From Isoptericola halalbus (GTDB lineage: Bacteria > Actinomycetota > Actinomycetes > Actinomycetales > Cellulomonadaceae): a stretch of 45,346 bases of DNA. The notes under the pieces are model-generated. The model was not told the DNA's origin. It searched no databases and saw nothing but the letters and a program-made list of their open reading frames with translations. Position 1 is the first letter of the stretch, and each line of letters starts with the position of its first letter. Below are positions 701 through 43,513 of this stretch, one piece after another. The stretch spans positions 1 through 45,346 of the forward strand of contig VJZX01000025.1 of assembly GCA_009663185.1 (NCBI GenBank), given 5' to 3'. A program made the translations under genes and the position numbers.

Positions 701-1462
701 ATGACCCAGAAGCAGAGCATCCTCGGCCGCATCAGCCAGCTCGCGCGGGCGAACATCAACGCCCTGGTCGACCGGGCCGAAGACCCGCAGAAGATGCTCG
801 ACCAGCTCGTGCGCGACTACACGAACAACATCGCCGAGGCCGAGCAGGCCATCGCACAGACCATCGGCAACCTGCGTCTGGCCGAGCAGGACTACAACGA
901 GGACGTCGCCGCCGTCCAGGAGTGGGGGTCCAAGGCCCTCGCCGCGTCACGCAAGGCCGACGAGTACCGCCGCGCGGGCGACTCCCCCAACGCCGACAAG
1001 TTCGACAACCTCGCCAAGGTGGCGCTGCGCAAGCAGCTCGACGCCGAGACCGAGGTCAAGCAGGCGCAGCCCATGATCGAGCAGCAGCGTCAGACGGCCG
1101 AGAAGCTCAAGGCCGGCCTGGCCGCGATGAAGGACAAGCTGGGCGAGCTCAAGACCCGGCGCGACCAGCTCGTCGCGCGTCAGAAGGCGGCGGAGGCGCA
1201 GCAGACGGTCCAGGGCGCGATCAGCTCGATCAACGTGCTCGACCCGACGAGCGAGCTGTCGCGCTTCGAGGACGCCGTGCGCCGCGAGGAGGCCATGGCG
1301 ATGGGCCAGGCGGAGATCGCCGCCTCGTCGCTCGAGTCGCAGTTCGCGGAGCTCGAGTCGCACGACAAGGACATCGAGCTCGAGGCCCGGCTCGCCGCGC
1401 TCAAGTCGGGCAGCGCACCGGCGCCGCAGATCAGCCCGATGCCGGTGAGCGACGAGGCCTGA
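701..1462 (+). CDS. pspA: PspA/IM30 family membrane-stress protein
   Basis: This 253-aa protein is almost entirely long amphipathic helices rich in Glu, Lys, Gln and Ala. It opens with the PspA-type sequence SILGRISQLARANINALVDRAEDP and continues with a VRDYTNNIAEAEQAIA helix. Members of the family (PspA, Vipp1) form oligomeric scaffolds on the inner face of the membrane and counter membrane damage. I chose ATG 701 over GTG 683 because GGAAGGCGA lies 5-7 nt before it, while the GTG has no ribosome site. The gene follows the TPM protein and probably shares its transcript. It runs into a 20-bp-pitch repeat array directly after its stop codon. No PspF- or ClgR-type regulator is present in the window. 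Confidence 0.93.
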   Translation: MTQKQSILGRISQLARANINALVDRAEDPQKMLDQLVRDYTNNIAEAEQAIAQTIGNLRLAEQDYNEDVAAVQEWGSKALAASRKADEYRRAGDSPNADKFDNLAKVALRKQLDAETEVKQAQPMIEQQRQTAEKLKAGLAAMKDKLGELKTRRDQLVARQKAAEAQQTVQGAISSINVLDPTSELSRFEDAVRREEAMAMGQAEIAASSLESQFAELESHDKDIELEARLAALKSGSAPAPQISPMPVSDEA

Positions 1463-1571
1463 CGCCGAGGTAGAAGAACGCCCGCCGAGGTAGAACGACA
1501 TCCGGCGAGATAGAAGGGATTCGGCCGAGAATCGGTTCTACCTCGGCGAGTGCGGTTCTACCTCGGCGTCA
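1460..1571. repeat. 20-bp-pitch GCCGAGGTAGAAC array, facing copies (array A)
   Basis: Forward cores begin at 1464, 1484, 1504 and (degenerate) 1524. Inverted cores lie at 1535-1547 and 1555-1567. Every step within a set is exactly 20 bp. The outer 16 bp, TGACGCCGAGGTAGAA (1460-1475), is a perfect inverted repeat of 1556-1571, and each arm includes the stop codon of one of the two convergent genes. TAG occurs in all three plus frames, at 1471, 1491 and 1511. The block can fold into a long hairpin and probably ends transcription from both sides. Confidence 0.9.
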
Positions 1572-6528: not shown

Positions 6529-7257
6529 ATGGGCGTCATGAGCGCCGCCGCGCCGCAGTGGTTCCTCTCAGCATTCGTCCGGTCCTGCCAGGGGGCGGGA
6601 GCGACCGCCAGTGAGGAGGAGATCCGAGCGGTCGGGGAAGAGCTCATCGAGCGCTGGTCCGCCCCGGACCGCCACTTCCACGACCTGCGTCACCTGGCCG
6701 CCGTACTGCACCGCGTGGACGAGCTGGCCGAGGAGACCCACGAACCCGAGCTCGTGCGACTCGCCGCCTGGTACCACGGCGCGGTGTTCGACGCCGACCG
6801 CAAGGTCGCGTACGAGACGCGCGGCGGGGAGCAGACGACCCTCAGCGCCGAGCTCGCACGCAAGCAGCTCACGGACATGGGCATCACCGCCGAGGCGGCC
6901 GACCGCGTGGGGCACCTCGTGGACACCCTCGCGCGGCACAAGCCCGACCCGGGCGACTTCGACTCGGCCGTGCTCAACGACGCGGACCTCGCGATGCTCG
7001 CCGGGGAGCCGCAGCGGTACAAGCAGTACGTGGCGGACGTGCGCGCCGAGTACTCGCACATCCCGCTGGGCGACTATCTCGACGCGCGTATCAAGGTGCT
7101 GACCAAGCTGCTGCAGCGGCCCCAGCTCTACGCGAGCCCGCTCGGCGCGGCGTGGGAGGAGCCGGCGCGGCAGAACGTCGACGCGGAGCTGCACAGGCTG
7201 CTCAAGGAGAAGCGCAAGCTCGAGGCGCAGGCGCCCGCGGGTCCGTCGCCGAGGTAG
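6529..7257 (+). CDS. HD-domain metal-dependent phosphohydrolase-like protein
   Basis: This 242-aa protein has the predicted HD-superfamily pattern: HFHDLRH near residues 49-55, AAWYHGAVFD with His83, and LNDADLAML. Related proteins are annotated as metal-dependent HD phosphohydrolases of unknown substrate. I preferred ATG 6529 (GAAGG about 11 nt upstream) to TTG 6520 and ATG 6538, but the exact start is not certain. A TAGTCT -10-like box near 6475 suggests its own promoter. The stop codon TAG lies inside a diverged copy of the dispersed GCCGAGGTAG repeat (7248-7260). Confidence 0.82.
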   Translation: MGVMSAAAPQWFLSAFVRSCQGAGATASEEEIRAVGEELIERWSAPDRHFHDLRHLAAVLHRVDELAEETHEPELVRLAAWYHGAVFDADRKVAYETRGGEQTTLSAELARKQLTDMGITAEAADRVGHLVDTLARHKPDPGDFDSAVLNDADLAMLAGEPQRYKQYVADVRAEYSHIPLGDYLDARIKVLTKLLQRPQLYASPLGAAWEEPARQNVDAELHRLLKEKRKLEAQAPAGPSPR

Positions 7258-7385
7258 CGCCCCTCCACGTGCCTGCGGCGGGCAAGGTTATCCACAGGCT
7301 CGCCCGTCGCCACCGCACGACGGTGCGAAGTTGCCTACCGTCGTCGTCGGCAGCCCGTCAGGGCCACGACGACGAAGGAGGATAC

Positions 7386-14402: not shown

Positions 14403-14459
14403 TGGAGCGCAGACAGCCTACCGGCTGAACGGCGCCTGCGGCTCGACGGCTGGAGATGT

Positions 14460-14475
14460 TCACGGAAACCCGTGA
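14460..14475 (-). terminator. Small hairpin after the DsbA-like gene
   Basis: TCACGG and CCGTGA form a 6-bp stem with a 4-nt loop, 36 bp past the stop codon of the DsbA-like gene. Weak; a termination role is inferred. Confidence 0.35.
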
Positions 14476-14510
14476 GGTTACGTGAGCATCTACAGCCGTG
14501 GCGCGAGGTG

Positions 14511-19721: not shown

Positions 19722-19926
19722 CGGACGTCGTCGCGTGACGCGAGTCACTGCCGTGTACTATCAAGGCGCACGGGGGCGCCGGACACCGGCCAGCCACAGG
19801 CGAGCAGAGTCCAGCCTGCCGTGCCACAACAGAATGTGTCACCGCCGACACGCCAGTCGTGAACGCACAGACACCCGACCACAACGGATCGTCCGGCACG
19901 TACCTGCCGGTGGAGGGATGTACACC
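19722..19926 (+). promoter_or_regulatory. Promoter region and structured leader of the MsiK-like gene
   Basis: GTGACGCGAGTCAC (a 5-bp inverted repeat) is followed by a -10-like TACTAT near 19755-19760, implying a leader of about 160 nt. A 6-bp hairpin (CCGGCA, 6-nt loop, TGCCGG, 19893-19910) abuts the GTGGAGGG ribosome site. A control role is inferred; no known riboswitch was recognised. Confidence 0.4.
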
Positions 19927-21039
<1,113 letters not shown>

Positions 21040-30962: not shown

Positions 30963-31634
30963 ATGCGAGAGATCTTCGATGCCGAGCTGCACCACATCGG
31001 CGACGGCCTGGTCGAGATGAGCCGCCTGGTCGAGTCCGCGGTCACCCGAGCCGGGACCGCGCTGCTCGAGGCCGACTACCAGCTCGCCCAGGACGTGATC
31101 GCGTCCGACCACGAGATCGACAAGCTCGAGCGCGCGCTGGACGAGCGGTGTGTGCACCTCATCGCGCAGCAGGCGCCCGTCGCGACAGACCTGCGCATCG
31201 TCATCAGCGCCCTGCGCATCAGCGCCACGCTCGAGCGGATGGGCGACCTCGCCCGGCACGTCGCCGAGGTGGCCCGCGGCCGGTACCCGGCCCTGGCCGT
31301 GGCGCCCACAGCGCGCGAGACGTTCGAGAAGATGCACGACGCCGCGGTCCACGTCGCCGGCCGGACCACCGAGCTCCTCCAGACGCGCGACGTCGAGCTC
31401 GCCGCCGAGATCCAGCAGGACGACGACCTCATCGACGCCTTGCACCAGGACACCTTCGCCGCGATGCTCGCGCCTGGGTGGAACGGCACGCCGCAGGAGA
31501 CGATCGACGTGACCCTGCTCGCCCGGTACTACGAGCGCTTCGGCGACCACGCCGTCTCCGTCGCGCGTCGGATCACCTTCCTCGTGACGGGCGACTTCGA
31601 CGCCGAGCACTCGCCGTCGCACCTGGAGGTCTGA
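30963..31634 (+). CDS. phoU: Phosphate signalling protein PhoU
   Basis: This 223-aa all-helical protein has the two PhoU repeats with MREIFDAELHHIGDGLVEMSRLVE, the metal-site motif ERMGDLARHVAE in the first and YYERFGDHAVSVARRI in the second. PhoU represses the phosphate-starvation response by acting on the sensor kinase and Pst transporter. ATG 30963 has GAGAGGAA 6 nt upstream. GTTCACC repeats upstream suggest control by RegX3. The gene ends in repeat array B. Confidence 0.96.
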   Translation: MREIFDAELHHIGDGLVEMSRLVESAVTRAGTALLEADYQLAQDVIASDHEIDKLERALDERCVHLIAQQAPVATDLRIVISALRISATLERMGDLARHVAEVARGRYPALAVAPTARETFEKMHDAAVHVAGRTTELLQTRDVELAAEIQQDDDLIDALHQDTFAAMLAPGWNGTPQETIDVTLLARYYERFGDHAVSVARRITFLVTGDFDAEHSPSHLEV

Positions 31635-31652: not shown

Positions 31653-31772
31653 GCCGAGGTAGAGCAGTTCTCGCCGGGGTAGAACAGATCTCGCCGAGGT
31701 AGAACGTCGGACGGCCCCGCGCTCGGAGCGAGCGCGGGGCCGTTACGTCGGCGAGATCCGTTCTATCTCGGC
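31653..31772. repeat. 20-bp-pitch GCCGAGGTAGAAC array, facing copies (array B)
   Basis: Forward cores begin at 31653, 31673 and 31693, exactly 20 bp apart. Inverted copies lie at 31760-31772 and (degenerate) 31740-31752, again 20 bp apart. TAG falls in all three plus frames, at 31660, 31680 and 31700. The forward and inverted units flank a GC-rich hairpin and could pair as its outer stem. Located between convergent phoU and gpmA. Confidence 0.9.
31711..31743. terminator. Bidirectional terminator between phoU and gpmA
   Basis: ACGGCCCCGCGCTCG (31711-31725) and CGAGCGCGGGGCCGT (31729-31743) form a perfect 15-bp stem with a 3-nt loop, at the centre of repeat array B. Confidence 0.85.
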
Positions 31773-31773
31773 A

Positions 31774-32514
31774 CTAGCGACCCTGGGCCGCGACCGCGGC
31801 GATCGCGTCCTTGGCCGCCTCCGGGTCGAGGTACTTGCCGCCCGGGACGACCGGCTTGAGCGTCGTCTCGTCGAGCTCGTACACCAGCGGGATGCCGGTC
31901 GGGACGTTCAGCCCGGCGATGGTGGCGTCGTCGATGCCGTCGAGGTGCTTGATGATGGCGCGCAGCGAGTTGCCGTGCGCCGCGACGAGGACCGTCTTGC
32001 CCGCCTCAAGGTCGGGGACGATCTCGCCGTCCCAGTACGGCAGCGCCCGCTCGAGCACCTGCTTCAGCGCCTCCGCGCGCGGGATCGGCTCGCCCGCGTA
32101 GCGGGGGTCGGAGTCCTGCGAGAACTCGGAGCCGAGCTCGATGTCCGGCGGCGGCACGTCGTACGAGCGGCGCCAGAGCATGAACTGCTCCTCGCCGTAC
32201 TCGTCGCGGACCTGCTTCTTGTCCTTGCCCTGCAGCGCGCCGTAGTGGCGCTCGTTGAGGCGCCAGCTGCGCTTGACGGGGATCCAGTGGAGGTCCGCGG
32301 CGTCGAGCGCGAGGTTCGCGGTCGAGATCGCCCGGCGCAGGAGCGAGGTGTGCACGACGTCGGGCGAGACGCCGGCCTCCTTGAGGAGGTCGCCGCCGCG
32401 CGTCGCCTCCGCGATGCCCTTCTCGGACAGCGGCACGTCGACCCAGCCGGTGAAGAGGTTCTTCGCGTTCCACTCGCTCTCGCCGTGGCGGAGCAGCACG
32501 AGGGTGTAGGTCAT
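31774..32514 (-). CDS. gpmA: 2,3-bisphosphoglycerate-dependent phosphoglycerate mutase
   Basis: This 246-aa glycolytic enzyme interconverts 3- and 2-phosphoglycerate. It has the phosphohistidine motif [10 protein letters not shown] (His10), [11 protein letters not shown] with Glu88, and the second catalytic His180 in [11 protein letters not shown]. Length is that of the dPGM family. ATG 32514 has AGGA about 7 nt upstream. It lies in the conserved mshA-gpmA-phoU-senX3-regX3 region of actinobacteria. Confidence 0.97.
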
Positions 32515-33563: not shown

Positions 33564-33616
33564 GCACTACCTCGGCGATGAACGTTCTACCTCGGCGAGA
33601 GGCGTTCTACCTCGCG
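33564..33616 (-). repeat. 20-bp-pitch GCCGAGGTAGAAC array (array C)
   Basis: Three minus-strand cores at 33564-33576, 33584-33596 and 33604-33616 are exactly 20 bp apart. The last supplies the mshA stop codon (TAG at 33607-33609), and the other two place TAG in the remaining minus frames. There is no facing copy, so no long hairpin forms here. Confidence 0.88.
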
Positions 33617-34944
33617 GTCCGGACCTTGCGCGCCTGGGAGTAGACGTCGAGCACCGCGGCGGCGGCGCGGTCCCAGCTGAACCGCTCGCTCGCGCGCCGG
33701 GCGCCGGCGGCGAGCGCGGCGCGGCGCTCGTCGTCGTGCAGCAGCTCGTCGAACACACGTGCCCACGTCCACGGGCTGTGGTCGGGCACGAGGACGCCCG
33801 AGACGCCGTCCTGCACCACGGTACGCAGCCCGCCGACGGCGGCCGCCACCACGGGAGTGCCGGTCGCCTGCGCCTCGGCCGCCACGAGCCCGAACGACTC
33901 GTTGTGCGACGGCACAGCGACGACGTCGGCGGCCCGGAAGTACTCGACGAGCACCTCCCGCGGTGCGGGAGGCCGCACGACGAGGTGGTCGCTCACGCCC
34001 ACCTGGTGCGCGAGGGCCTCGAGCTCGCGCACGGCCGTCGGACGCCCGCTCGAGCCGCCGAGCACCACGAGTGTCGGCACCTGGCGACCCCCGCCCTCGC
34101 GCAGGCAGTCGGGGTCCGGCCGGCCTCCGGCGTCGAGCAGGTGCGCGGGGGCGTGGTCGGCCAGCACGCCGAGCGCACGGACGAGGATGTCGGGACCCTT
34201 GAGCAGCTGGACACGACCGGCGAAGAGCACCACGGGCCGGTCGGTCGGCAGCCCGAGGCGGGTGCGCAGGGCATGCCGCTCCTCCGCCGTCGTGCGCCCG
34301 GAACGCGGGACGAGCGGCGAGAAGACGTCGAGGTCCACGCCCGGTGCGACCACGTGCACGCGGTCGGGGTCGGCGCGGTACTCGCGCACGAGGTCGTCGG
34401 CCTCTTCGCGCGTCGAGGCGACGAGGGCATCGGCCTCGGCGACGACCTGCTCCTCGCCGATGACGCGCCCGAGCGGCTCGGGCACGTCGCCGGGCGCGAG
34501 CGCCGCGTTCTTGACCTTCGCCATCGTGTGCATGGTGTGGACGAGCGGCACGTCCCACCGCTGCGCCGCGAGCCAGCCCACCTGACCCGAGAGCCAGTAG
34601 TGCGCGTGCACGACGTCGTACCAGCCGGGAGGGCGGTGCGCCTCGGCCCGCAGAACTCCGGCCGTGAAGGCGCACAGCTGGCCGGGAAGGTCGTTCTTGT
34701 CGAGGCCCTCGAACGGGCCTGCGGCCACGTGCACGACCCGGATCCCCGGCTCGGTGTCGACCACCTTGGGCTGGGCCGACGACGTTGCGCGCGTGTAGAT
34801 CTCGACCTCCGCGCCGCGCCGCGCCAGAGCGCGCGAGAGCTCGAGCACGTAGACGTTCATTCCGCCCGCGTCACCGGTTCCGGGCTGGTCGAGCGGCGAG
34901 GTGTGGACGGAGAGCATCGCGACGCGCGGGCCGGAGTCGTGCAT
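33607..34944 (-). CDS. mshA: D-inositol-3-phosphate glycosyltransferase MshA
   Basis: This 445-aa GT4 enzyme makes the first intermediate of mycothiol from UDP-GlcNAc and inositol 3-phosphate. It begins [27 protein letters not shown], typical of MshA. It has VHAHYWLSG, the acceptor motif [11 protein letters not shown], and the nucleotide motif [24 protein letters not shown] 34944 is set by GGAGGG 6 nt upstream. The in-frame GTG at 34950 overlaps that site. The lactonase stop codon overlaps this ribosome site, so the genes are coupled. Confidence 0.95.
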
Positions 34945-34946
34945 GG

Positions 34947-36023
34947 TCACCCCTCCAGGACGCACGCGGGTGGGGTGGGCAGGACGAGGCGGTCGGTCAC
35001 CTCGCCGGCGCCCGAGGCCGGGTCCACGCGCAGGGCAAGCAGCTCGCTCGTGCCCTGCGCCGCGACGACGACGGTCAGCGCGTCGTCGTCGGACCCGGAG
35101 AGGACCGCATGGTGCCGGGGCCACGCGTCCGAGCCGAGCGGCACGTCGGCGACGTGGTGCAGCGCGGGCGTGGCGCCGTCGGCCACCCGGTGGACGGCGA
35201 GCACGTCCGGCCCGCGCACGCCGATCGTGAGCAGCGTGCCGTCGTCGCTCAGCGCGACGTGCGACGGCAGCGCCGCCGATCCCTCCGGGACGGCGACGCC
35301 CGTGGCGGGCACCGACCCGGCGTGCTTCCAGCCGTCGCCGTCGGGCACGAGGAGGTGCGCCTGGTCGTCGAGCTCGCCGACGACGACGAGGGCGCCGCCG
35401 GGCAGACGGACGAGATGACGCGGGCCGGTGCCGGGCGGCACGGTCGCGACGACCGCGGCGTCGGCCGCGCCGTGCGGGGTGGCGCCCGTGGCGGAGCCGC
35501 GCGGGTAGCCGCGCAGCTGGTCGGTGCCGAGGTCGCAGACGAGGACGCGGTCGCCGTCGATCGCGACGAAGTGCGCGTGCGGACCCTGCTGGCGGTCCGG
35601 GTCCGGGCCGGTACCGGCATGGGGATGGGTCGCGGGCTGCTCGGCGGCGAGCGCGCCCGACGCCGGCTCCACGGGGACGACCGCCGCGACGCCGTCGCCG
35701 TAGTTGGCGACCCAGACCTCGTCGTCGGTCGCGACGACGTGGCACGGATCGTCACCGCCGCTGGGCACGGCGCCCGCGGGGACCAGACGGTCGCCGTCGA
35801 CGTCGAACGCCGCGAGGGTGCCGGGCGCCGTCTCCCCCACCGCGTAGAGCGTGCGACCGGACGGGTGCAGCGCGAGGAACGACGGGGACGGCGTCGTGAC
35901 GACGAGATCGTGCGCGGTGAATCGGCCGCCGGAGACCTCGACGCGCCAGATGCCCTCGCCGCCGCCCGGCTCGCTGCCGGGGTGCGGGTAGGTGCCGATC
36001 CACAGGACCGTCGCAGACGTCAT
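34947..36023 (-). CDS. Lactonase (YkgB/6-phosphogluconolactonase-like beta-propeller)
   Basis: This 358-aa protein has the seven-bladed propeller pattern of the lactonase family: WIGTYP at the start, [66 protein letters not shown] and WPRHHAVL. It may hydrolyse 6-phosphogluconolactone, but many members have unknown substrates. ATG 36023 follows TAGGCT by 7 nt and is leaderless. The stop codon lies 3 bp from mshA. Confidence 0.87.
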
Positions 36024-40871: not shown

Positions 40872-41837
40872 GTGAGCGCGAACGAGAACCCGCTGCCCGT
40901 GTTCGCCGACCCGTCCGGCGTCGAGCCGGCCCTCGACCCGGCGTGGATCGCGGAGACGGTGGAGATCGCGCTCGACGAGGACCTCGGCCCTCTGCCTGGT
41001 CGCGACGTGACCACCCAGGCGACCATCCCGCCGTCGAGCACCGGCACCGCCGACCTGGTGGCGCGCGACGACGGGACGGTCGCCGGCCTCGTGGCCGTCC
41101 GGGAGACCCTCGAGCAGGTCTCCGACCGCCTCGGGCTTCCCGTGCCCCGCGTGACGTTCCATGCTCAGGACGGGCACGCCGTCGTCCGCGGGCAGGTGCT
41201 CGCGACGATCGCGGGGCGCACGCAGGTGCTGCTCGTCGCTGAGCGGACGATGCTCAACCTGGCGTCGCGCGCGTCGGGCGTGGCGACGGCCGCGGCGGCG
41301 TGGACCCGTGCGCTCGAGGGCACGGGCGCCCGAGTGCTCGACACCCGCAAGACGACGCCTGGCCTGCGCGCGCTCGACAAGTACGCCGTGCGCGCCGGCG
41401 GCGGCACGAACAAGCGCATGGGGCTGTACGACGTCGCGATGGTCAAGGACAACCACGTCGTCGCGGCCGGCTCGGTGGGCGCGGCGGTCGCGGCCGTGCG
41501 GGGGGCATTCCCCGACGTGCCGATCCAGGTCGAGGCCGACACCACGGCGCAGGCGCTCGAGGCGCTCGACGCCGGCGCGGACTTCCTGCTGCTCGACAAC
41601 ATGCCGACGCCGGTCCTCGCCGAGACGGTCGCCTCCGTCCGTGCGCGCGAGGGTCGCGACGGCGTGGCCGCGCACGTCGAGCTCGAGGCGACCGGCAACC
41701 TCACGCTGGACCGGGCACGCGAGGTGGCCGAGACCGGCGTCGACTACCTGTCCGTCGGTGCGCTGACCCACTCCGCGCCGATCCTCGACCTCGCGCTCGA
41801 CCTGCATGCCGAGGTAGAACGAGTTCCGGCGAGGTAG
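40872..41837 (+). CDS. nadC: Nicotinate-nucleotide pyrophosphorylase (carboxylating)
   Basis: This 321-aa enzyme converts quinolinate and PRPP to nicotinate mononucleotide in NAD synthesis. It has AERTMLNLASRASGVAT, the active-site LDTRKTTPGLRALDKYAVRAGGGTNKRMGLYD, VKDNHV, QVEADTTAQALEAL and LLDNM. The last residues (EVERVPAR) and the stop codon are encoded by repeat array D. Its 3' end overlaps nadB on the opposite strand by 94 bp. Usually nadC follows nadB on the same strand; here it is inverted. Confidence 0.96.
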   Translation: MSANENPLPVFADPSGVEPALDPAWIAETVEIALDEDLGPLPGRDVTTQATIPPSSTGTADLVARDDGTVAGLVAVRETLEQVSDRLGLPVPRVTFHAQDGHAVVRGQVLATIAGRTQVLLVAERTMLNLASRASGVATAAAAWTRALEGTGARVLDTRKTTPGLRALDKYAVRAGGGTNKRMGLYDVAMVKDNHVVAAGSVGAAVAAVRGAFPDVPIQVEADTTAQALEALDAGADFLLLDNMPTPVLAETVASVRAREGRDGVAAHVELEATGNLTLDRAREVAETGVDYLSVGALTHSAPILDLALDLHAEVERVPAR

Positions 41838-43513
41838 AACGCCTCGGCGAGGGTGCCGTCCTCCTCGAGGGCGAGCTCGACGCGACGCTCCCAGGCCGGG
41901 TCCGGCTCGGGGAAGTCGGTGCGGAAGTGCCCGCCGCGGGTCTCGGTGCGCACCCAGGCGGCGTGCACGAGCGCGGTCGCGACCTGGTGCACGTTGGTGG
42001 TCTCCCACTCGGCCACCTGCGGGTCGGCGACGACGTCGGCGGCCAGGTGGGCGTCGGCCCGCACACCGGCGAGCCGCACAGCCGCGCCCTCCAGCGAGGC
42101 GGCGGACCGGATCGGCCCCGCGCCCTCCGACGCGGCGCGCTGCACGCGCGAGCGCGCCGCCGCGGCCACGAGCGCGGACCCGCCGGGCCGCTCGACCGGC
42201 TCGGGCGCGGACCGCAGCTCGCCTGCGTCGTACCGCGCGGCGACGTCGTGCGCCGCGCGATGGGCGAACACAAGACCTTCGAGCAGGGAGTTGGACGCGA
42301 GCCGGTTGGCCCCGTGGACGCCGGTGCAGGCGACCTCGCCCACCGCGTACAGGCCGGGCACGGAGGAGCGTCCGAGCAGGTCGGTCACGACGCCGCCGGA
42401 GTGGTAGTGCTGGGCCGGTGCCACGGGCACGGGCTCCTCCGTCCAGTCGATCCCGGCGTCGAGCAGCCGCTCGGTGATCGTCGGGAAGCGGCGCCGGAGG
42501 AAGGCGGCGCCCAGGTGCCGGGCGTCGAGCAGCACATGCTCGGCCGACGTCGCGGCCATCTGCCGCACGATCGCGTGCGCGACGACGTCGCGCGGCGCGA
42601 GCTCGGCCATCTCGTGCACGTCCGGCATGAAGCGGTGCCCGTCGACGTCGAGGAGCAGGGCGCCCTCGCCGCGGACCGCCTCGCTGATGAGAGGCAGCTG
42701 GCCGCGAGCGCCCGCGCCCAGCCACAGCACGGTCGGGTGGAACTGCACGAACTCCATGTCGCCCAGGACAGCACCGGCGCGCAGCGCCGCGGCGATGCCG
42801 TCCCCGGTCGCCCCGGGCGGGTTGGTCGAGGACCGGAACACCTGCCCCACTCCCCCGGTCGCGAGCACGACGACGGGTGCGAGCGCGGCGCCGACGCCGT
42901 CGCGCGAGCCCTCGCCCCGCACGTGCAGGGTCACACCGGCCACGGGCCGCCGGCCGCCGGCTCCGGGAGCACCCGTGAGCACGTCGAGCACCAGCGCGTT
43001 CTCGACGACCTCGATGCCCGGGTCGTGCCGGACGGCCTCGATCTGCGCCACGAGGGCCCGAGAGATCTCGGCCCCGGTCGCGTCACCGCCGGCGTGCGCG
43101 ATGCGGTCGGCGCGGTGCCCACCCTCGCGCGTCAGCGCGATGTCGCCGTCCGGGCCGACGTCGAACGTCGTCCCGCGCGCGACGAGCTCGTACACGCGGT
43201 CGGGGCCCTCGGTGACGAGGACCTGGACCGCCTCGGGGTCGCTCAGGCCTCCGCCCGCGACGAGCGTGTCGTGCAGGTGCGCCTCAGGGGTGTCGTCGGG
43301 GTGCAGCACGGCCGCAATACCGCCCTGCGCCCACACGGTCGAGCCCGACGAGAGCTTGCCCTTGGTCACCAGCAGCACGTGCGGCACTCGCGTGCGCAGC
43401 TCGAGCGCGGCGGTGAGCCCCGCGATCCCGGAGCCGACGACGACCGCGTCCGCCGTCGTCGTCCACCCGGGCTCGGGGGCGGCGAGGGCGCGTGCGAGGC
43501 GTGCCGGCGTCAC
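41744..43513 (-). CDS. nadB: L-aspartate oxidase
   Basis: This 589-aa flavoenzyme oxidises aspartate to iminosuccinate, the first step of quinolinate synthesis. It has the FAD motif [79 protein letters not shown] and [21 protein letters not shown]. The C-terminus is odd: after LAEAF the frame runs through repeat array D and on antisense to nadC, adding about 30 residues ([20 protein letters not shown] and more). GTG 43513 overlaps the panD stop by 4 bp. NadA is not in the window. Confidence 0.95.
41808..41840. repeat. 20-bp-pitch GCCGAGGTAGAAC array (array D)
   Basis: Two plus-strand cores at 41808-41820 and 41828-41840, exactly 20 bp apart. The second supplies the nadC stop codon at 41835-41837. 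On the other strand the array is translated as part of the nadB tail. Confidence 0.88.

Follow-up and report, generated by a model that had tools for sequence, protein, structure and literature searches.

The 45,346-nt stretch of the Isoptericola halalbus genome analysed here (contig VJZX01000025.1, hereafter referred to as the window) carries rows of a short core word at regular intervals at the 3' ends of several genes, and raises the question of what these rows are, what reads them and how they come to lie where they do.

Core arrays in the window and its genome

Array A begins directly after the TGA stop codon and one C of a PspA/IM30-family gene (683-1462), with three plus-strand cores at 1464..1476 (GCCGAGGTAGAAG, one mismatch), 1484..1496 (exact) and 1504..1516 (degenerate, GGCGAGATAGAAG). 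A central spacer (1517..1534), partly self-complementary and forming the apex of a hairpin, precedes two exact inverted cores on the minus strand (1535..1547 and 1555..1567), the second of which adjoins the stop codon of a class-I glutamine amidotransferase gene starting at 1569 on the minus strand. The sequence-only reading had placed cores at 1464, 1484, 1504 and 1524; the first three stand, but at 1524 only GCCGAG matches. It had correctly recorded TAG in three frames, at 1471, 1491 and 1511. Array B follows a PhoU-family gene (30963-31634), and its plus-strand cores are present where they had been claimed (31653..31665, 31673..31685 and the exact 31693..31705). Its inverted core on the minus strand (31760..31772) adjoins the stop codon of a histidine-phosphatase-family (phosphoglycerate-mutase-like) gene (31774-32514); the minus-strand cores at 1535, 1555 and 31760 complete arrays A and B. 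Inspection by eye located a G+C-rich hairpin (31712..31742) between the arms of array B and, in several relatives, a comparable G+C hairpin at the phoU end without an array; the window genome has both, and array B is therefore an addition to the hairpin.

Array C was also found at the positions previously given, but on the minus strand: its cores lie at 33604..33616, 33584..33596 (exact) and 33564..33576 (GCCGAGGTAGTGC), and the TAG of the first is the stop codon of a glycosyltransferase gene (33607-34950). The two plus-strand cores of array D, likewise present as claimed, lie at 41808..41820, within the 3' overlap between nadC (40872-41837, plus strand) and a nadB-like frame (41744-43513, minus strand), and at 41828..41840, with its TAG as the nadC stop codon. 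The nadB-like frame crosses array D on the reverse strand (41744-41840) and ends inside nadC; array D seems to have cost the nadB-like gene its usual end. A single plus-strand core of the sister-species type (GCCGAGGTAGCGC) occurs at 7248..7260, its TAG ending the gene at 6529-7257, and the sister genome G001 has three cores at this site. No Rfam 15 family exceeded its gathering score at the arrays, the matches in the window being a tRNA and an msiK RNA element (59.3 bits; 19866-19925, plus strand), just before the gene called at 19918-21039.

The core word (GCCGAGGTAGAAC) was found 63 times in exact form in the 4.10-Mb window genome, versus no occurrence of the reversed pattern, and 190 times with one mismatch, versus 10. 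In the window, 17 matches with at most two mismatches were obtained, versus 1.08 expected, a number reached by none of 100 shuffles. A matrix derived from the arrays (consensus CGCCGAGGTAGAAC) identified 267 sites with a score of at least 14, the reversed matrix nine and four permuted matrices 0 to 15. The anticipated recurrence of the core with partners 20 bp away was also borne out: same-strand core spacings of 20, 40 and 21 bp were represented by 80, 32 and 12 pairs, respectively, in 830 kb of sequence, a biased sample consisting of the window and 40 stretches of up to 20 kb, picked mostly around exact and one-mismatch cores. The pitch is not invariably 20 bp, as had been proposed, since the 150 same-strand neighbour intervals of the window genome include 14 of 21 bp and four of 17 bp in addition to 124 of 20 bp. 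The distances from plus-strand to minus-strand cores in this genome display modest phasing (Rayleigh p about 0.005 at 10 bp), which is partly a consequence of the pitch itself. Between adjacent units, in 12 sequence sets, spacers differ at 0.56-0.77 of sites and cores at 0.00-0.22, core divergence being biased downwards because units had to resemble the core.

Gene ends, orientation and folding

Gene positions were obtained with our own codon-usage caller, not from an annotation, and a 3' end was considered array-bearing if a core lay within -35 to 60 bp of it. At the 75 array-bearing 3' ends of the sampled stretches, the nearest core was sense in 67 cases and antisense in eight. The commonest offset (28/75) makes the TAG of the core the stop codon of the gene, and the second (11/75) places the core directly after the stop codon plus one base; TAG was the stop codon of 35 of the 75 array-bearing genes, versus 89 of 661 others. 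The 58 arrays of these stretches, a figure in which three opposed arrays are each counted as two halves, lay between convergent genes (29), tandem genes (23) or divergent genes (4) or inside a called gene (2: the nadC/nadB overlap in the window and the interior of dnaX). The fixed pitch, the 3'-end placement and the sense orientation are thus supported, but the claim that arrays lie only at gene 3' ends, never in promoters or gene interiors, holds for the 52 between convergent or tandem genes, a placement like that of REP/REPIN elements, and not for the six others. The divergent-gene arrays are those at L011 8990, L017 3377, L019 1116 and L025 9907; those at L011, L017 and L025, the three read, are sense within a 5' leader.

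The excess of arrays between convergent genes (29/58, versus 57 of 386 gene gaps >60 bp) and the 67/75 sense cores argue for the main rival to the binding-site reading developed below, namely that the arrays are 3'-end elements beneficial to the host, which would act as bidirectional transcription stops or insulators between convergent genes, via mRNA hairpins or a polar roadblock protein. We consider this possible but unlikely. In its favor, opposed arrays fold strongly (z = -9.0 for 1460-1570 in the window), and an ordinary hairpin was seen by eye at some sites in the sister species lacking the array. Moreover, the inner spacers covary: in the spacer adjoining the array centre, 82 of 132 positions are complementary between arms in the window genome, versus 43.8, and 125 of 144 in Oerskovia flava, versus 101 (0/2000 shuffles in both cases). 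The next outer spacer shows no excess of complementarity in either genome, and weak complementarity in Cellulosimicrobium, with 21 of 2000 shuffles reaching the observed value.

Other observations weigh against a 3'-end function. Clustering by a 75-bp rule gave 28 arrays with plus-strand followed by minus-strand cores, 27 one-sided and three mixed. Six of the one-sided arrays prove, however, to be halves of three opposed ones, leaving 21 of the 58 truly one-sided, a recount that weighs slightly against the hairpin explanation. A strong downstream hairpin (z below -2) was found for only one of these 21 arrays, versus 11 of 40 array-free gene ends; by the 75-bp rule, six of the 27 had such a hairpin, five of them being split opposed arrays. 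The hairpin cassette previously suggested is therefore consistent with the opposed arrays, but not with the one-sided ones. Around array A, the only array scanned in this way, the scan (1300-2000) detected no hairpin with a T run behind it; this array has a hairpin, but not the combination of G+C hairpin and T run of an intrinsic terminator. The hairpin at phoU and its neighbour persists in several relatives whether or not an array is present, 69 of the 92 3' ends compared between sister species (see below) have no array in either, and three of 18 congeners have arrays only at background counts. Single units fold much like column shuffles in ten sets (differences of about -1.5 to +2.4 sd), the largest differences being those for G001 (at most 2.4 sd lower) and G017 (seven units). 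At L037 4019-4150, a palindrome with arms of about 50 bp each, nearly perfect as judged by eye, unites two cores and their spacers with a terminator-like hairpin, which suggests palindrome correction.

Dialects of the core and a coding copy in dnaX

The exact AAC core of the window genome occurs only 0-2 times in each of 17 congeners, among which the same array layout is found with other cores (GAGGTAG-CGC, GAGGTAG-T, GAGGTAG-GCA, GAGATAGAGA at 22 bp, GAGTCAGCGC and GTCAGGA); arrays with other cores lie at the nadC end in several of them. A de novo scan for 6-mers recurring at a constant distance, covering about 15-60 kb of fetched sequence per genome, identified, at a pitch of 20 bp, GAGGTAGCGC in G001, GAGGTAGT in G008, G012 and G006, GAGGTAGGCA in G016 and G017, GAGTCAGCGC in G010 and G013 and GTCAGGA in G002, and, at 22 bp, GAGATAGAGA in G005 and G011. 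Weak words at other distances were obtained for G003, G014, G233 and G022, and none for the stretches of G009, G004, G189, G187, G191, G149, G023, G019, G058 and G059, although the scan misses sparse arrays, since G004, G191 and G149 do have arrays genome-wide. All these dialects preserve the frame CGnGAG-nn-AG in the genus: the core varies centrally and in its 3' part, whereas CGAG (CGGG in part of G002) and AG are constant. The tag is GTAG in most, ATAG in G005 and G011, and TCAG in G010, G013 and G002. Some close genome pairs seem to share dialects. In the window genome, a minority of the arrays are of the CGC type and some are mixed, one of them containing AAC, CAC and CGC together. A further dialect (CGAGATAGCGA) was noticed at L037 about 14410-14510, the same gene end in the window genome and G001.

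Genome-wide, pairs of CGAGGTAG at 20 bp numbered 286 in G001, 226 in G008, 179 in G007, 171 in G017, 163 in G006, 140 in G004, 121 in G016, 114 in G015, 98 in the window genome (G000), 46 in G012 and 14 in G011, with none in the other seven genus members and a reversed control of 0 in every listed genome. The generic pattern CGAGnnAG, paired at 20-22 bp, gave 59-306 pairs in 15 of the 18 genus members (reversed control 1-13), and background numbers in G003, G009 and G014 (3-6, control 2-4).

These dialects bear on the three-frame ribosome stop proposed in the sequence-only reading. The core TAG is the called stop codon at 28 of the 75 array-bearing ends, and pitches of 20 and 22 bp both shift the frame, which would fit such a cassette. 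The frame-neutral pitch of 21 bp also occurs, however (14 intervals in the window genome and 20 in the Cellulosimicrobium set), and the coding copy in dnaX (see below) keeps TAG out of frame. The sense cores of G010 and G013 (CGCGAGTCAGCGC) and of G002 (CGCGGGTCAGGAC) contain no stop codon and nonetheless lie at gene ends, where the sense core is nearest in 11 of 16 cases. A stop cassette as the general function is thereby refuted, and we assign this explanation a minimal probability overall. The sense core is nearest at 67 of 75 gene ends in the window genome and 114 of 127 in a second sample for the GAG(G/A)TAG dialects; that the bias is also present, though weaker, in the small sample of GTCAG dialects indicates that it is not solely a consequence of TAG. 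The four antisense ends of G010 and G013 correspond to their arrays beside nadC (L150 11600-11735 and L172 12381-12600, respectively), the orientation of which is opposite to that of most others.

The array in dnaX lies in the coding sequence for the DnaX linker, in frame, with six units at 21 bp in the window genome (GAG GTA/GTG GAA/GAC) and eight units in G001 (GAG/GAA GTA GCG), encoding AEVE/D and AEVA, respectively; the corresponding stretch of fifteen other genomes contains no array. The word follows the dialect of the species. GTA accounts for only 237 of the 23,450 valine codons of the window genome (1.0%), yet for 13 of the 14 in the linker repeats (five of six in the window genome and eight of eight in the sister), which implies that the motif is kept at the DNA or RNA level and not at that of the protein. 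The two coding copies may descend from a single ancestral array altered in situ or have been gained independently.

Dialect change has its closest analogue, as far as the comparison extends, in the DNA uptake sequences (DUS) of Neisseriaceae, which are present as thousands of scattered copies per genome. The explanation that the cores are an uptake-type signal of this kind, with species dialects, has in its favor the dialects among close relatives, a stop codon in most words, inverted pairs and the location at gene ends. We nevertheless regard it as very improbable, because the arrays are far less numerous (63 exact cores and 98 CGAGGTAG pairs at 20 bp) and form tandems locked to a fixed pitch. 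For DUS, PMC3630211 describes dialects of one short word among closely related species, a stop codon in most words and inverted pairs at gene ends, features resembling those found here.

Turnover, a putative factor and known repeat systems

The window genome was compared with 460 kb of G001 (100 reciprocal best hits, median identity 89%), providing 92 usable orthologous 3' ends. At least two cores were present in both genomes at five ends, in G001 only at six and in the window genome only at 12, the last number being inflated because the stretches of the window genome were chosen around arrays. An array is thus present in the window genome at five of the 11 ends where G001 has one; these five shared ends (four sites) have AAC/AAG-type cores in the window genome and CGC in G001. 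At several ends with an array in one genome, the other has a single core or a different word. Tandem growth with identical spacers was seen within arrays. Identical spacers in distant arrays were more frequent than expected in a larger sample from G001 (73 spacers from 36 arrays; 18 pairs versus 1.5, with a maximum of 8 in 2000 column shuffles), but remained within the range of the shuffles in the 460-kb stretch of G001 (3 versus 0.8, maximum 5), the window genome (10 versus a mean of 2.6, maximum 13) and O. flava (3 versus 4.6, maximum 14). Judged from spacer sequences, copying between loci is supported by one of these four tests.

The gap between core and spacer divergence, the strict pitch of about two helical turns and the preservation of CGAG and AG across dialects point to a sequence-specific binder. 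The site differences between sisters, the coding copy and the identical spacers left by tandem growth indicate, in addition, a process that generates arrays and is probably mobile. Taken together, these features lead us to favor arrays of binding sites for a fast-evolving factor that probably also spreads them, a reading to which we give an even chance of being correct, and the two-helical-turn protein-binding array of the sequence-only reading, with a putative factor and function, remains the leading idea. Each array would be a row of sites at a pitch of 20 bp (22 bp in one dialect), with cores of about 13 bp, read by a putative trans-acting DNA-binding factor differing in specificity between species. 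The same factor would probably be the enzyme copying or moving the units. New arrays would arise by insertion of a unit followed by local tandem duplication, and would survive mainly just after stop codons; their spacers would then drift while the cores were held. A shift in the specificity of the factor along a lineage would, through array turnover, replace the dialect genome-wide. Any benefit to the cell is likewise putative.

Several observations argue against this model. The complementarity of the inner spacers between arms is not predicted by plain DNA binding, although it could result from template-switching palindrome correction. Simple DNA binding leaves the sense bias unexplained, and three of the 18 congeners lack arrays of the generic CGAGnnAG pattern. 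The 460-kb spacer test for G001, within the range of the shuffles, also weighs slightly against copying.

The interspersed repeats well described in bacteria are linked either to RAYT transposases or to DNA uptake. The explanation that the arrays are GTAG-tagged REP/REPIN elements of the classical type, with a RAYT transposase moving them, would fit their similar placement and the GTAG in most cores. It seems very improbable, given that single units fold like column shuffles; some dialects have ATAG or TCAG. Identity with RAYT/REP elements was rejected because the units have no clear stem and the RAYT-type Y1_Tnp domain (PF01797) is absent from the genus (0/18 genomes; 2/221 in the family, versus matches in 5/14 control genomes). 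The MIRU of mycobacteria resemble the arrays in being repeated in tandem at the ends of genes, where they overlap stop codons, but their units are longer copies of one sequence, whereas only the core is kept in the arrays. The sites of TnsB and of TTF-I/Reb1 are repeated, oriented protein sites at a spacing of about two turns; unlike them, the arrays are dispersed over the genome, with no cargo seen and a putative factor. According to PMC3733652, GTAG REPs lie downstream of genes, their TAG supplying the stop codon of flanking ORFs, have copies inside replication and repair genes and form families differing between species. The arrays share this likeness to REP/REPIN/BIME elements as short interspersed repeats 3' of genes, with TAG stops, an intragenic copy in a replication gene and species-specific families. 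REPs are, however, RAYT-linked palindromes, whereas the units of the arrays show no clear palindrome and follow one another head to tail every 20-22 bp, separated by spacers that are not conserved. The earlier statement that no family of this structure has been described was upheld in the open-access literature, among the matches listed, and a term search of the RepRanger paper gave no match to Cellulo-, Isoptericola, Oerskovia or Streptomyces. We file the arrays under short interspersed bacterial repeats, outside REP and DUS.

Returning to the binding-array reading, we tentatively propose a new genomic repeat system, in which a putative fast-evolving factor would read a pitch-locked, non-palindromic word, make or move the arrays and impose its dialect genome-wide, including in dnaX. 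The genus offers a natural series of dialect changes, complete with mixed-word arrays, which makes testable the general question of how the sequences of hundreds of scattered sites come to change in concert, and of what recognises them; should the factor be found, related binding proteins would become available as a set, each paired with its own sites.

Tandem cores are also present in records from O. flava, O. rustica, several Cellulosimicrobium, one Sphaerisporangium and one Promicromonosporaceae metagenome-assembled genome. The generic CGAGnnAG pairs numbered 20-304 (control 2-10) in 17 genomes of genus g25, taken as Cellulosimicrobium because the array sequence of G159 is the same as in a Cellulosimicrobium record, 78 in G191, taken as O. 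flava, 67 and 68 in two g4 species, 54 in G177 and 245 in G229, the control for the last being 87; the remaining family members had at most about 21, most of them near their controls. Among 396 genomes drawn evenly from the order, the CGAGGTAG pair was found outside the family only in G408 (1) and G483 (3). A phage origin was considered and rejected, the pair occurring once each in 10 contigs of a viral collection of 2.9 million contigs. On the 3' side of nadC in L111 (G189, genus g33), CGA(G/C)GGTGAC repeats at about 22 bp were seen by eye, possibly another dialect in a different genus, and the words CGAGACAG and CGAGCGAG at a 20-bp pitch (G019 and G062) hint that other genera of the family have dialects of their own.
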